Shown piece by piece: positions 4,280 to 43,097 of a stretch of DNA of 64,000 bases (the first letter of the stretch is position 1; every line of letters begins with the position of its first letter). The position numbers were made by a program, and so were the translations under genes. The notes beneath the pieces are model-generated. The model saw nothing but the letters and a program-made list of their open reading frames with translations. It did not search any database and had not been told where the DNA came from. The DNA is from Nitrosotalea devaniterrae (GTDB lineage: Archaea > Thermoproteota > Nitrososphaeria > Nitrososphaerales > Nitrosopumilaceae), in the NCBI GenBank assembly GCA_900065925.1, contig LN890280.1:1-64000 (forward strand). Reading direction: 5' to 3'.

Positions 4280-7200
4280 ATGTCTGAGAACCTAGCATTG
4301 CGACTCAAAGAAGTCCCAATGCCTCAAGACTATTTTGACTATTACACCAAGATATCAGAAGAAGTTTTTACTATTTTTGGACAGGCCGCATCTGCCAAGG
4401 CAACACTTGCAGATTCTTCTGGTATGGTAGAACCAAAGATTGCATTTGATCTTGCAGATCGTGTATCCAAAATGCACGACATTGATGTAACTGACAATCT
4501 TAGGTCTCTCATTCAAAATACTACCAAAGAATTGGCTGCCCTCAAGCTTGCAGAGGACATAGCTCAAGGCAAGTATTCTGGGCCTGATACTGGGCTTCAG
4601 GAAAAACTTGATCTTGCCGTGCGTGTGGCTTTGGCTATAGTTACAGAAGGAGTCACCATTGCACCTCTCCAAGGAATAAGTGAGGTACAAATCAAAAAAA
4701 ATGCAGATGGTTCTGAATATCTATCTGTATCATTTGCAGGTCCTATTAGATCAGCAGGAGGAACAGAAGCTGCCTCTACCATGCTTATTGCAGATCATGT
4801 GCGAAAGATAGCTGGACTTGCAAAATATCAGGCAAATTCATTTGATGATGAGACTGGTCGATTTGTGGAAGAGTTAAGGGTATACGAGAGAGAAGTTGGA
4901 AGCTTTCAATTCCATGTTCCAGATCAAGATGTGATAAATGTTATCTCTAATCTTCCAGTTGAACTTGATGGTGTAGATACCGACCTAGTTGAGATTGTAA
5001 GCCATAGAAACATGGTACGAATAGGTACCAATAGAGTACGAGGCGGAGCCCTTCGTGTACTAAATGATGGACTCATTGGAAGATCCCGTAAACTACTCAA
5101 ACTCATTGAATTGTACAAGCTTGATGGCTGGGATTGGCTCAAAGACCTCAAAGGGGCTATCCAGACAGGTGATGCAGATGCAGCAGCTCACAGAATGAGA
5201 GAGGTGATTACAGGAAGATCAGTACTTTCCATGCCTAAAAAACTTGGGGGATTTCGATTAAGATATGGCCGTTCATGCAATACTGGCTTTGCCTCAATTG
5301 GTATTCATCCTGTAGTTGCAGAGATACTTGACCATGCCATAGCCGTGGGGACTCAGATTAAACTTGATGTCCCTGGAAAAGCTTCTACTGTAGCCTTTGT
5401 GGATTCTATTGATACACCAATTGTCAGACTAACCAACGGTAATGTTGTAAAAATAAAAGATACTGCTCATGGGATTCATCTAAAACCACACATTGCAAAA
5501 ATTCTACATCTTGGAGATATTTTGATCAGTTATGGAGATTTTCTGGAAAACAATGCAGAGCTTGTACCTACCGGATATGTGGAAGAGTTCTGGTCCCAGG
5601 AACTATTAGACAAAGTAACCAAGTATGAACCAAATGATACTGAACTTCTAGGTTATGTAAACAAGATTCCAGAACTAGAGGAAGCATTTAGGATATCATT
5701 GAATTTTGGAATTGGTCTTCATCCACATTATCTCTATTATTGGGATCAAATCACAATTGAGGAATTTGAAAAAATTCTCAAACCTACAAAATATGAATCA
5801 GATCTTATTATTTACCCAACTGAGGCAAAAGATATTCTGGAAAAATTGGGTGTTCCTCATGAAGTTGCAGGCAACACCATTATCCTAAAAGATGTAGAGG
5901 CAAAAGTTTTCTTTTATTTATTATTTAGAAAACCAGTACAACTTGAAAAAGATCTTTCTGTTCCTCAAATCATAACAAACTCATCTGGCATAAAAATACC
6001 AAACAAGTTTTCAACCTCTATTGGAGTAAGGGTTGGGAGGCCAGAAAAAGCTGCACTCCGAAAAATGAAACCGCCGGTTCATACTTTGTTTCCAGTTGGA
6101 AACAAAGGTGGAGCATCCAGAGATTTGCTCAAGGCAGCAAAGCAACCAAACTTTTACTGTAACATATACAATAGATTCTGCAAAACGTGTAACGTACCTT
6201 CCATTAGCATAGCATGTCCAAAATGTCACACAAAAACAAGTACGATTTTCATATGTAACAAATGCAGAGATGAACTTGATACAGACTATTGTGCAAAATG
6301 CAAATCACGAACACATGCACACTCATACCGCTCATTTCCTCTCAAAGATCTACTATATGCAGCCCAAGAGAGGACTGGATTTAGGGCACAGGAACCATTC
6401 AAGGGCGTAAAGGAGCTCATAAACCAAGACAGAGTGCCAGAGCCGCTTGAAAAAGGCCTGATAAGGCAAAGTCTTGGACTCAATGTCTTCAAGGACGGCA
6501 CAATTAGATTTGATACAACAAATGCTCCACTCTCACACTTCAAACCTTCTTGGATTGGAACAACACCGGAAAAACTGGTTAAACTTGGATACACTCATGA
6601 TACCAACGGCAATCCACTTGAAAACTCTGATCAGCTTGTTGAACTCCGAGTACAAGATGTGATAATTCCTAAAGAATGTGGAGACAGCCTTGTTTTTGTC
6701 TGTCAATATATTGACCGAGAGCTTGCAAAACTCTTTGGGCGCCAATCATTTTACAATGTAAAAAGTAGTGATGATCTGGTAGGTCATCTTATCATTGGTC
6801 TTGCACCGCATACATCTGTTGGAATTGTGGGCAGAATAATTGGATACACCAATACTCAAGTGTGTCTTGGAACTGCAGTATGGCATTCTGCAAAAAGGCG
6901 TGATGCTGATGGTGATGCAGACTCTATAATGTTGTTAATGGATAGTTTACTTAATTTTTCAAGGCTGTTTTTGTCTGACAGAATTGGTGGGTTGATGGAT
7001 GCTCCACTACTTGTTCAACCTATTGTAATTCCCCAAGAAGTACAAAGACAAGCTCACAACTTTGAGGTTGTAAAGGCATATCCACTTTCATTCTTTGAAT
7101 CTACTCTCAAAAAGGAGAAAGCAAGTGAGATCAAAGATGTTGAGATTCTAAAATCAAGATTAGAAACAGAAAGGCAATTTCTTGGACATGACTTTACACA

Positions 7201-15871: not shown

Positions 15872-15948
15872 GGGGCCGTAGTCTAGCTTGGTATGATACT
15901 AGCCTGGGGTGCTAGAGGTCGCCGGTTCAAGTCCGGCCGGCCCCACCA
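15872..15948 (+). tRNA. tRNA-Pro (GGG)
   Basis: Full cloverleaf. The acceptor stem GGGGCCG (15872-15878) pairs with CGGCCCC (15938-15944). The anticodon stem CTAGC/GCTAG surrounds loop CTGGGGT with anticodon GGG at 15906-15908. The T arm is GCCGG-TTCAAGT-CCGGC, followed by discriminator A at 15945 and an encoded CCA. No intron. A TTTAATAATT TATA-like box lies 22-31 bases upstream. Confidence 0.97.
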
Positions 15949-35355: not shown

Positions 35356-35590
35356 CTGTTTCTGATTTAATGCTGTACCAGATTAGTTTGTCGAAGATTG
35401 AAACAATACAATTTTTGAATCTTCAAAAAAACACATTATAATGATACGGTGATCATGGTTTACGTCAATGTTTGTTGAAATATTTTATTGAAATACTTTG
35501 TAAATATGAAAAAATATATGTAAAATAATAAATACAATGATGTATTATTATGAATAATGCAGAAAGATGTAAAATCTACTGCTTAAGAGA

Positions 35591-35678
35591 GCGTGGCTCC
35601 GTAGACTTGAATTGTGAATCCCACTTGGGTGTGGATTAAAAGAGGTAATCTCTGTCTGTCTACGAACAAGGGCCACGC
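35591..35678 (+). ncRNA. Candidate three-way-junction RNA
   Basis: Nested pairing: GCGTGGC/GCCACGC (35591-35597 with 35672-35678, plus a U-G and a C-G pair). Inside it CGTAGAC/GTCTACG (35600-35606 with 35658-35664). Within that are two hairpins: AATCCCAC with GTGTGGATT (35617-35637) and AGAG/CTCT (35641-35653). The U-G pair favours the plus strand. No convincing TATA box is at the right distance. No tRNA features. The rest of 35356-35741 is AT-rich with no other feature. Confidence 0.45.
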
Positions 35679-37946: not shown

Positions 37947-39206
37947 ACTATTGTGTGATAGTTTGTAACGAAAGTATGCCTGGTACAAGACTAAGGATAC
38001 CACTAGTATAGCTGAAGCAGAAAGGAACATCGCTGCATATCCTACAATTTTTGTCAATTCTCCTGTAACAAGTGAGCCTGCAAATATCCCAACACCGGTT
38101 ACTGCACTATTTACTCCAAGATACTTTCCTTCAAATCCCTGAGGAATGCTCTTGAAAAATATCACAGAACTAGATGTACTAAAAATTGAGAATGCAATTA
38201 CCATCAGGCAAGATGATGTTATTGTAACTGGAAAACCCAGAGTTCCTACCATCGAAAGTAATGAAATAGCAGGAATCATTACTGCTAAAATTCGTGGTAT
38301 GTGGGCCAGGATAGTTGATCGTTCTTCTCCAAATCTTGATATTATTTTTGGAGCAATGAAAAAGACTAGTAACATAGTTATCATTTGAATAGTATAATTC
38401 AGAAAGACGTCTGCATTTGAAAAATTCTGATTTTTCAAAAATGGTGTCCATGCAGTAAAATACATGTTACTTCCAAAATAAAAAAAGAAAGATGCTAGGT
38501 AGAATATGCCTATCTCATTGCTTATTTTTCCTTTGAATAATATGATTATGTGCCTGAAATCATATGCTTCTAGAATCTTTGGAAAAACAAAATGATGGTG
38601 ACTGATTGAATAGCGTAAACCGTGTAAGGAATGAGCAATACTACTTCTTTCAAGTTGAATACCGTCTCCTCTTACTGATGTACTCAAAACCATAGCTATG
38701 CCGCTTGATACAGCACATATCAAAAAATATGGTCTTAGATCAAAATAAAAACTTCCAACCGTTCCAATTATCATAGAAACTAACATCCCAAGAGTACTGA
38801 TGATTGATGTACGTGCAAATAGCCAACTCCAGAGATTCTTTTGCACTGATTCCATCACAAGAAGTTGTGTAACTGGACTTCTTGCAACCATGAAAAATCC
38901 AAGTACTATTGCTAATCCATAAAGAATGTAAACTGAACTGGTAAAATACATTCCAAGACTACAAAGTAGTACAAAAAAGAATGAAAGAACAAGTATTGGT
39001 CTTTTAGAATGAAATCTGTCAATTATTCTTCCCCAAGCCAATGAACCAATGGCTATTGCTCCATTTTGTAGAGCTGAAATTATAGCTACTTCTCCTATGT
39101 CACCTCCCAGAAATATTACATATAATGGAATTACAGTGCTTAATCCTTGAGCAGTAATTTGGGCTGGTAGCAAATACCACATCCATCGCTTATTTTGAAG
39201 TTGCAT
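37929..39206 (-). CDS. Major facilitator superfamily transporter
   Basis: 425-residue MFS carrier with twelve predicted membrane helices and the characteristic loop 2-3 motif GRIIDRFHSKRP (G-x3-D-R-x3-K/R). A second, weaker copy lies after helix 8. Substrate unknown. ATG at 39206 follows its own TATA-like TTATACAAT (39236-39245), so the structured RNA further upstream is probably not its leader. Overlaps the cdvB end convergently by 18 bp. Confidence 0.88.
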   Translation of the reverse strand: MQLQNKRWMWYLLPAQITAQGLSTVIPLYVIFLGGDIGEVAIISALQNGAIAIGSLAWGRIIDRFHSKRPILVLSFFFVLLCSLGMYFTSSVYILYGLAIVLGFFMVARSPVTQLLVMESVQKNLWSWLFARTSIISTLGMLVSMIIGTVGSFYFDLRPYFLICAVSSGIAMVLSTSVRGDGIQLERSSIAHSLHGLRYSISHHHFVFPKILEAYDFRHIIILFKGKISNEIGIFYLASFFFYFGSNMYFTAWTPFLKNQNFSNADVFLNYTIQMITMLLVFFIAPKIISRFGEERSTILAHIPRILAVMIPAISLLSMVGTLGFPVTITSSCLMVIAFSIFSTSSSVIFFKSIPQGFEGKYLGVNSAVTGVGIFAGSLVTGELTKIVGYAAMFLSASAILVVSLVLYQAYFRYKLSHNSLDVTG

Positions 39207-39299
39207 TGTTCTAGGTAATCAGAGTCCAGGCATTATTGTATAATGCATTTGAAAAATTTCCATAGTTTTGTCTATTCTTTGCTATATGTGGAAAAATTC

Positions 39300-39477
39300 T
39301 ATCATGCAGAAGTGTGGAAGCCACACATCGTGTATGAGTGTGATGCACTCATAGCATGCTGACCTTTGTCATCATTTCCTTCGGGGGTACCTTGGGATGC
39401 TATATGTGAAAAGAGTGATCTTTTCACATCACACATTGTCTGCATGATACCTATCTCGGAGGATGTCCTTTGATAGG
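39300..39477 (-). ncRNA. Candidate independent structured RNA gene, about 180 nt
   Basis: Five helices. On the minus strand the first hairpin is CCTATC/GATAGG (39450-39477). Then comes an outer 11-bp stem TATCATGCAGA/TCTGCATGATA (39300-39310 with 39439-39449). It encloses three perfect hairpins of 10, 8 and 6 bp (39404-39429, 39333-39353, 39312-39326) and a fourth small stem GCAT/ATGC. A TATA element TTAAATATTTTA (centre near 39503, minus) would start transcription at about 39477, the first base of the structure. A T-run (GAATTTTTC) follows the last stem. No coding frame. It lacks RNase P, SRP and tRNA signatures. Confidence 0.6.
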
Positions 39478-39494
39478 GAGTATTAATACGTGAA

Positions 39495-39508
39495 TAAAAT
39501 ATTTAAGG
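39495..39508 (-). promoter_or_regulatory. TATA box of the 39300-39477 RNA gene
   Basis: Minus-strand CCTTAAATATTTTA, centred near 39503, 26 bases from the first nucleotide of the predicted structure. Confidence 0.55.
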
Positions 39509-39566
39509 TTTGTGTATTATTTAGTACTTGAAATTTTGAATTTTCTTAATAATTCAAAGTTGTTAC

Positions 39567-39971
39567 ATGATTTTAGAACATATTTCAAATTTTTTAATGA
39601 AAGCTTTTATGATACGATGCTGTAATTTAGTCATGAAAAAGGATGGGGATGTGTATCAGCTTATTTATGAATCAAATCTAGACAGCAAGCTAGAGCAGAT
39701 TCTAATTGGATTGGTAAAGGACAATCCTTCTCCGAAGATTGAGTCAATAATTCAGAAATTCCTTCTATATGTTCAACACTCTACAGAAAATTTCTGGACT
39801 ACTTACTACAGTGCAAAAACATATGAGGAAAAGCTAGATTGTTACTATCAATACTCCAAGAACCAGTGTCTTGCAACTGAGGTGTTGGTCAGAGATCTTG
39901 GCTCATTATCCTCAGATGATGAAATAAAGGAAAATCTGGATGCTCTAGTAAAAGAGAGTTTTACATTCTAG
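39567..39971 (+). CDS. Conserved hypothetical protein, helical
   Basis: 134 residues, mostly alpha-helical, acidic toward the C-terminus and with a Tyr-rich centre (FWTTYYSAKTYEEKLDCYYQY). No domain is recognised and no membrane helix. ATG at 39567 is leaderless-like with a TATA-like CTTAATAATT before it; an internal ATG at 39633 (MKKDGDVYQL) could be the real start if the first 22 hydrophobic residues are not translated. Convergent with the coiled-coil gene. Confidence 0.65.
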   Translation: MILEHISNFLMKAFMIRCCNLVMKKDGDVYQLIYESNLDSKLEQILIGLVKDNPSPKIESIIQKFLLYVQHSTENFWTTYYSAKTYEEKLDCYYQYSKNQCLATEVLVRDLGSLSSDDEIKENLDALVKESFTF

Positions 39972-41616: not shown

Positions 41617-41904
41617 ATGTCAAAACAACAATACAGATCTGAAATGGGTATCATAGCCGATATCCTAGGCGTAACCATGGATGGAGGAACACAAGGGGTA
41701 ATCGTCTCAGCCATATCCCGACGAGCAAATCTATCACATTATGCAGTGCTTGAGAAGTGCCAAAAATTGATAGATGCGGGGTTGGTGGAATCAATGAAAG
41801 CCGATAGAAACAGGCTTTTTAGGGTTACAGAGAAAGGAATTAGATTCTTTCAGGAATTCCAAAGGTTCCAAGGTGTTATGCAAGGACTTAATCTCAGGTA
41901 TTAG
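41617..41904 (+). CDS. Winged-helix transcriptional regulator (ArnR1-like)
   Basis: 95 residues forming a single winged helix: helix 1 RSEMGIIADILG, HTH SAISRRANLSHYAVLEKCQKLIDAGLVE and wing ADRNRLFRVTEKG. The pattern is that of the small ArnR1-type archaeal wHTH proteins. ATG at 41617 is about 27 bases from a TATA-like element, so it is leaderless. Followed by a membrane sensor gene on the same strand. Confidence 0.85.
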   Translation: MSKQQYRSEMGIIADILGVTMDGGTQGVIVSAISRRANLSHYAVLEKCQKLIDAGLVESMKADRNRLFRVTEKGIRFFQEFQRFQGVMQGLNLRY

Positions 41905-41993
41905 ATATGCATCAGGAATACCAAATGATTGAGATACAAGAAGTATTGCCGGAAGGAATACTTTTTGTAAGGATAAATCATATTCTGACAACA

Positions 41994-43097
41994 ATGGTTA
42001 GAGCACCAGTTGTAGCAGTATGCTTTCTTTTGCTTACTCTCTCCTCATTTGTACAATATGCTATGGGTAGTCCTAAATCTCTTGATTTTACAATTTATGC
42101 AGATGGAACTACTCATGTTCTCTATCAAACTGATGTAGATTCCCAGTCGCCTGATTTCATTCTAAATGTATACGGTAACAACATTGAAAATCTTGTAGTA
42201 CAAGATGGGAACGGAACATTACTTTCAAGCAAGGTAAATGCAAGTACTATATCAGTAGCAACTCTGGGAGCTTCTACGATAAAGGTAGATTACGACACTC
42301 CTGATTTGATATCAAAAAATGGGAAAACGTGGACTTTTCGTATGGATTCTCCTATTGATTATTCCATGCTCTTACCAAAAAATACGGTAATTGTTGGAAT
42401 GAATGTATCACCTCTGGGTATGCAGGTAGTAGATGATCAATCTCTCATATCATTACCAAGCGGTTCATCAGAAATTAGCTATGTCATTGGCGTATTGGGG
42501 ACAAGTCAGACTGCTACTTTGGCAATCCAAAAAGCTCAAGACTTTATTAATACTGTAAACTCTGCAGGAGTAAAAACTCCTATGGCTCTAACAAAGCTTG
42601 AAGAAGCAAGATCAGATTTTAATCAAGGAAAATACTCTGATGCAGAATCTCTTGCAAACTTGGCAAAGAATACTGCTCTCCAAGAACAACAATCCGCTAA
42701 TTCTATACCTGATAGTTCATCTAACAATACGTCAATCTATCTCCTGATTGGAGGCATTATTGCAGCAACAGTAGCTGGAATCATAATCGTGAAAAAAATA
42801 AAATCTACTAATGTTATAACTACAAATGAGATTCCAGTAAATAATGTTTCATCAGACAAGGAAACAATTTACAAACTTAAACCGGAATTACGACAAGATG
42901 ACAAGGAAATTGTAGCATTTATCTCTGAAAAAGGCGGCCAGGTATTTGAAAGTGAATTACGCAAAAAATTTTTGATGCCACGCACAACTATGTGGCGTGC
43001 TGTTAAACGACTTGAAAGGGAGGATATTGTTGAAATTGAAAAGATTGATCAGCAAAATCTCATTAAACTTCGAAAAACTGAGGAGAATCTAGAATGA
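41994..43097 (+). CDS. Membrane protein with external beta domain and cytosolic winged helix
   Basis: About 367 residues. An N-terminal signal peptide (PVVAVCFLLLTLSSFVQYAMG) comes first, then an external beta-rich domain (about 25-180) and a short helical segment rich in Ala/Gln. A transmembrane helix follows (about 245-268, IYLLIGGIIAATVAGIIIV), then a cytoplasmic winged helix (about 295-365, with RTTMWRAVKRLERE). This is a one-protein sensor that could carry an outside signal to DNA. ATG at 41994 matches a TATA-like GGATAAATC; the ORF also reaches to 41907 with another ATG. Confidence 0.85.
   Translation: MVRAPVVAVCFLLLTLSSFVQYAMGSPKSLDFTIYADGTTHVLYQTDVDSQSPDFILNVYGNNIENLVVQDGNGTLLSSKVNASTISVATLGASTIKVDYDTPDLISKNGKTWTFRMDSPIDYSMLLPKNTVIVGMNVSPLGMQVVDDQSLISLPSGSSEISYVIGVLGTSQTATLAIQKAQDFINTVNSAGVKTPMALTKLEEARSDFNQGKYSDAESLANLAKNTALQEQQSANSIPDSSSNNTSIYLLIGGIIAATVAGIIIVKKIKSTNVITTNEIPVNNVSSDKETIYKLKPELRQDDKEIVAFISEKGGQVFESELRKKFLMPRTTMWRAVKRLEREDIVEIEKIDQQNLIKLRKTEENLE

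Follow-up and report, generated by a model that had tools for sequence, protein, structure and literature searches.

Does the DNA between a divergent 134-aa gene (39567, plus strand) and an MFS transporter gene (39206, minus strand) of Nitrosotalea devaniterrae, a soil archaeon, encode an RNA of its own, and if so, what kind of RNA is it? To our knowledge, the structured RNAs known from ammonia-oxidising archaea, apart from rRNA, tRNA, RNase P RNA and SRP RNA, are few, and our literature search found no further ones. The locus lies within the window analysed here, a 64-kb stretch of a closed genome of 1,805,304 bases. A sequence-only reading of this window had proposed a structured RNA gene with a promoter and a T-run end. 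We find that positions 39479-39292 of the minus strand are a conserved structured RNA gene of ~188 nt, the exact 5′ and 3′ ends of which we infer. We have high confidence that the gene exists. Comparison among relatives shows that the gene, its predicted structure, and its putative promoter and terminator are conserved, and the gene is probably transcribed. The features of the locus, all on the minus strand, are as follows.

39496..39506, minus strand: TATA box TTAAATATTTT (TATA-like core TTAAATAT at 39506-39499), its first base 27 nt before the RNA
39487..39491, minus strand: conserved ACGTA between the TATA box and the RNA start, from the alignment; probably a proximal promoter or initiator element
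39292..39479, minus strand: structured RNA gene of ~188 nt, from covariance-model match, fold z and covariation
39450..39477, minus strand: P0, 5′ hairpin CCUAUC/GAUAGG with inner GGA/UCC; covarying pairs (helices 1 and 2)
39439..39449, minus strand: 5′ arm of the closing helix P1, UAUCAUGCAGA; near-invariant sequence, altered yet still paired in L123
39404..39429, minus strand: P3, 11-bp hairpin AUGUGAAAAGA/UCUUUUCACAU; strong covariation (helices 5 and 6)
39351..39403, minus strand: P7 (AUAGCAU/AUGCUAU), enclosing P4 (39378-39395) and P5; covariation in helix 8
39356..39375, minus strand: P5, hairpin with near-invariant apex GACAAAGGUC or GACAAUGGUC, from the alignment (helix 12)
39334..39352, minus strand: P6, hairpin AUGAGUG/CACUCAU; covariation (helices 13 and 14)
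39312..39326, minus strand: P8, hairpin GUGUGG/CCACAC (helix 15)
39300..39310, minus strand: 3′ arm of P1, UCUGCAUGAUA, from the alignment; pairs with 39449-39439
39292..39296, minus strand: T-run, likely an archaeal terminator; kept in the alignment, also in genomes without the downstream MFS gene

The putative promoter is held at a fixed distance from the fold. The first reading had counted 26 bases between TATA box and start; we find 27 nt, the value in 39 of the 41 homologues, while one of the remaining homologues has 26 nt and one has 28 nt. At zero mismatches, the TATA motif together with ACGTA is unique in the genome. A genome pattern scan for this promoter motif at other genes returned nothing above the reversed-pattern control, and the motif is absent from the regions upstream of the SRP, RNase P and tRNA-Pro genes. 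The RNA homologues also stand out in composition, with a mean GC content of 46% compared with 27% upstream and 34% downstream.

The locus folds more strongly than any other segment scanned. Positions 39292-39479 have a folding energy of -66.8 kcal/mol (z = -6.99; -5.8 for a slightly longer stretch). Among 188-nt windows scanned across the 64 kb on both strands at a step of 94, the fold ranks first (z = -7.35). The plus strand of the locus folds well too (z -4.5), as the complement of a base-paired sequence should. The positions of the TATA box and the T-run, together with an excess of G-U over A-C cells (86 vs 48), indicate the minus strand.

Relatives support a multi-helix fold that differs in detail from the single-sequence prediction. 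The 11-bp outer stem of the first reading is upheld as P1, UAUCAUGCAGA with UCUGCAUGAUA. Its 10-bp perfect hairpin is likewise present, as P3, although with 11 bp. Other helices deviate in detail from the single-sequence fold, and relatives support additional ones, including AUAGCAU/AUGCUAU, which encloses two hairpins. In the architecture that we propose, the P0 hairpin would be followed by P1, which closes P2, P3, P7 (around P4 and P5) and P6, while P8 would sit beside the 3′ arm of P1. P2 was positioned by comparing relatives, and the window's own sequence forms it weakly; P4 is poorly supported.

Covariation supports this structure as a whole. In a structure-blind alignment of 29 members (MAFFT, sequence only), 87% of cells pair, both sides change in 26 pairs, and covariation scores 0.179, compared with 0.112 for shuffled and at most 0.080 for slid controls. 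An alignment of 41 members fitted to the model, which leans towards structure, has both-side changes in 44 pairs and a score of 0.247 against at most 0.062 when slid. Mapped on the tree, the structure-blind alignment yields 17 compensatory double changes, spread over 15 pairs, compared with a mean of 1.1 and a maximum of 5 over 200 random re-pairings; the fitted alignment yields 41 compared with 2.2 by re-pairing. In an all-pairs covariation test modelled on R-scape, and stricter, no pair reached E ≤ 0.1; thus, support lies with the whole structure and not with individual pairs. A search for pseudoknots among extra covarying pairs gave no new contiguous helix. Conservation of this strength, with covariation, is what the first reading had asked of alignments from relatives.

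These patterns also bear on the idea that the locus is a DNA-level element, such as an operator pair or a cruciform, or that it conceals a gene for a small protein. The P1 arms are indeed nearly invariant inverted repeats, as such an element would have. However, the other helices show compensatory changes that include G-U pairs, no ORF of at least 60 aa overlaps 39292-39479, and length differences among members are not multiples of three. We consider this explanation highly improbable.

The RNA matches no known family that we searched, in agreement with the sequence-only reading. At the gathering threshold, an Rfam 15 covariance-model scan of the 64-kb window returned only a tRNA at 15872, and at E ≤ 10 the region 39200-39560 gave two chance matches far below gathering. 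We also judge it very unlikely that the RNA guides RNA modification (C/D or H/ACA type) or is a divergent form of RNase P or SRP RNA. The genome's only matches to archaeal RNase P RNA (RF00373) and archaeal SRP RNA (RF01857) lie elsewhere, at 625418-625694 and 1624238-1624550, respectively. A C/D guide should conserve boxes C (RUGAUGA) and D (CUGA). An AUGAUGA resembling box C is present, but it is not kept in L022 (GUGACGA), L023 and L026 (UUGUUGA), and it has no D partner. In an H/ACA guide, an ANA box should follow the stem, and a pocket should lie above the lower stem. Many members have A-N-A after the closing stem, but the letters following P1 vary (L014, L026 and L123) and P8 lies only about 2 nt from the P1 arm.

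The RNA has a restricted, Nitrosotalea-centred distribution. A DNA search recovered it in 35 of 101 relatives. Covariance model R1 found it in 37 of 400 Nitrososphaeria genomes, with one match per genome; these comprise nearly all Nitrosotalea plus genera g6, g8, g9 and g21 of Nitrosopumilaceae, and the other Nitrososphaeria genomes in that search gave no match. The window's own RNA scores 183 bits (E 5e-63), its sequence being itself part of the model. With the refined model R2 and laxer filters, a search of other genera and families returned only the diverged copy in G044; everything else scored at most 15 bits, and no genus was added. That copy reaches 68 bits (E 2e-21) with R2, which includes it, and 45 bits with R1, which does not. 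Named contigs carrying the RNA in a pattern scan are Nitrosotalea or unclassified Thaumarchaeota. Viral and bacterial pattern matches (L116, Chryseobacterium and others) are attributed to chance, with covariance-model scores of no more than about 14 bits or none.

Gene neighbourhoods indicate that the RNA is a gene in its own right. The RNA might be expected to serve the MFS transporter gene (39206-37929) as a 5′ leader or riboswitch, given that it lies on the same strand about 85 nt upstream and that synteny with the MFS gene holds in most genomes. However, three genomes that are 97-99% complete (G018, G021 and G035) have no MFS match, yet retain the RNA, the TATA box and the T-run. The next gene after the RNA in these genomes is instead CdvB-like (Snf7) and convergent. 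The RNA is also kept in a partial genome, G017, where the MFS gene was not found, and the G044 copy sits in another neighbourhood with neither flanking gene. Thus, the downstream gene is not constant, and the T-run separates the RNA from the MFS gene. The concern in the first reading that the RNA might be transcribed merely as an MFS leader is answered by these genomes, and a leader role is most improbable. The locus shows the features of a standalone trans-acting structured ncRNA: its own predicted promoter and terminator, a conserved fold, and no fixed downstream gene.

The RNA appears to be dispensable in at least one lineage. In G014, a 96% complete Nitrosotalea, we found neither the RNA nor the MFS and 134-aa genes. 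Its CdvB-like gene adjoins genes that we take to be electron-transfer flavoprotein-like, which suggests a deletion or rearrangement. Not every Nitrosotalea needs the RNA. The loss in this relative, and the survival of the RNA where its neighbouring gene was lost, provide natural experiments. The divergent 134-aa gene itself (39567-39971, plus strand) has no Pfam match; it is present in Nitrosotalea and, beyond that genus, in a few others of the family.

How might such an RNA act? We lean modestly towards a standalone, lineage-specific structured ncRNA of ~190 nt with a ribonucleoprotein (RNP)-type mechanism. Its own TATA promoter would drive transcription, and the RNA would end at the U-run. 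The transcript would close on itself through P1, with the P0 hairpin guarding the 5′ end and P2-P8 forming a multibranched core. Its action would most likely be in trans, with the folded RNA carrying or sequestering a protein as an RNP scaffold or decoy. The near-invariant P1 core (AUGCAG/CUGCAU) and P5 apex (GACAAWGGUC) are likely recognition sites. Both the protein partner and the biological role are putative.

Alternatively, the RNA could be a trans-acting antisense sRNA that pairs with mRNAs through exposed loops (the P0 inner loop, the P5 apex or the 5′ end), the remainder serving as a stabilising fold. A standalone gene with a promoter and a U-run end would suit such an sRNA, as would the short invariant apical sequences. 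However, conservation is chiefly structural: helix sequences drift while the fold is kept, and the most conserved letters fall in P1 and the P5 apex, not in a long single-stranded seed. Furthermore, the CCUCC of P0 is missing in L020 and L123, which also removes the candidate anti-Shine-Dalgarno mimic based on it. Antisense action is therefore possible but unlikely. An RNP-type RNA would fit better with a fold kept over sequence, both ends closed, a 5′ hairpin and a U-run. A bolder version of the RNP reading, in which the RNA founds a new RNP-forming class that is specific to Nitrosotalea and its related genera and fulfils a core cellular function served by no RNA in other archaea, is rather doubtful. 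If true, the RNA might, for instance, bind the machinery of transcription or of translation.

As far as tested, the RNA family and its architecture are new, while the kind, a standalone structured archaeal ncRNA, is already known. Our literature search found no description of this RNA; seven small RNAs are reported in the genome paper, whose text does not name them. Like RNase P RNA and SRP RNA, which work as RNPs, it is long, structured and single copy, although it matches neither. Hgc-type RNAs form GC-rich islands in AT-rich genomes, and their function is mostly unknown. HgcC and its relatives in Rfam are likewise archaeal, noncoding and discovered by computation first (HgcC: PMC4247193); in contrast, the Nitrosotalea RNA matches none of them and is a single-copy gene with its own predicted promoter, outside transposase genes, in a mesophilic ammonia oxidiser. 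The orphan structured RNAs of the Weinberg 2010 set (PMC2864571) were likewise found by covariation and are lineage-restricted and likely trans-acting; however, their architecture differs, and Rfam 15, which holds many of the set, gives no match. The family is now well bounded, with a covariance model, a consensus fold, a putative promoter and a Nitrosotalea-centred range; thus, its expression, partner and role are directly testable.

Other structured stretches occur in the window. A second conserved structured element lies just downstream of the TFB gene (35586-35678, minus strand; fold z about -5.6), with an outer stem GGCGUGGC/GCCACGC, an inner GUAGAC/GUCUAC and an invariant CAGAGAUUACCUCUU. 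It has matches in 23 of the 41 genomes searched, and the Rfam scan of the window returned nothing for it. Fold z values of about -5.4 and -4.4 are seen at 41831-42018 (plus strand), across the junction of the ORFs 41617-41904 and 41907-43097, and at 5923-6110 (minus strand), respectively.
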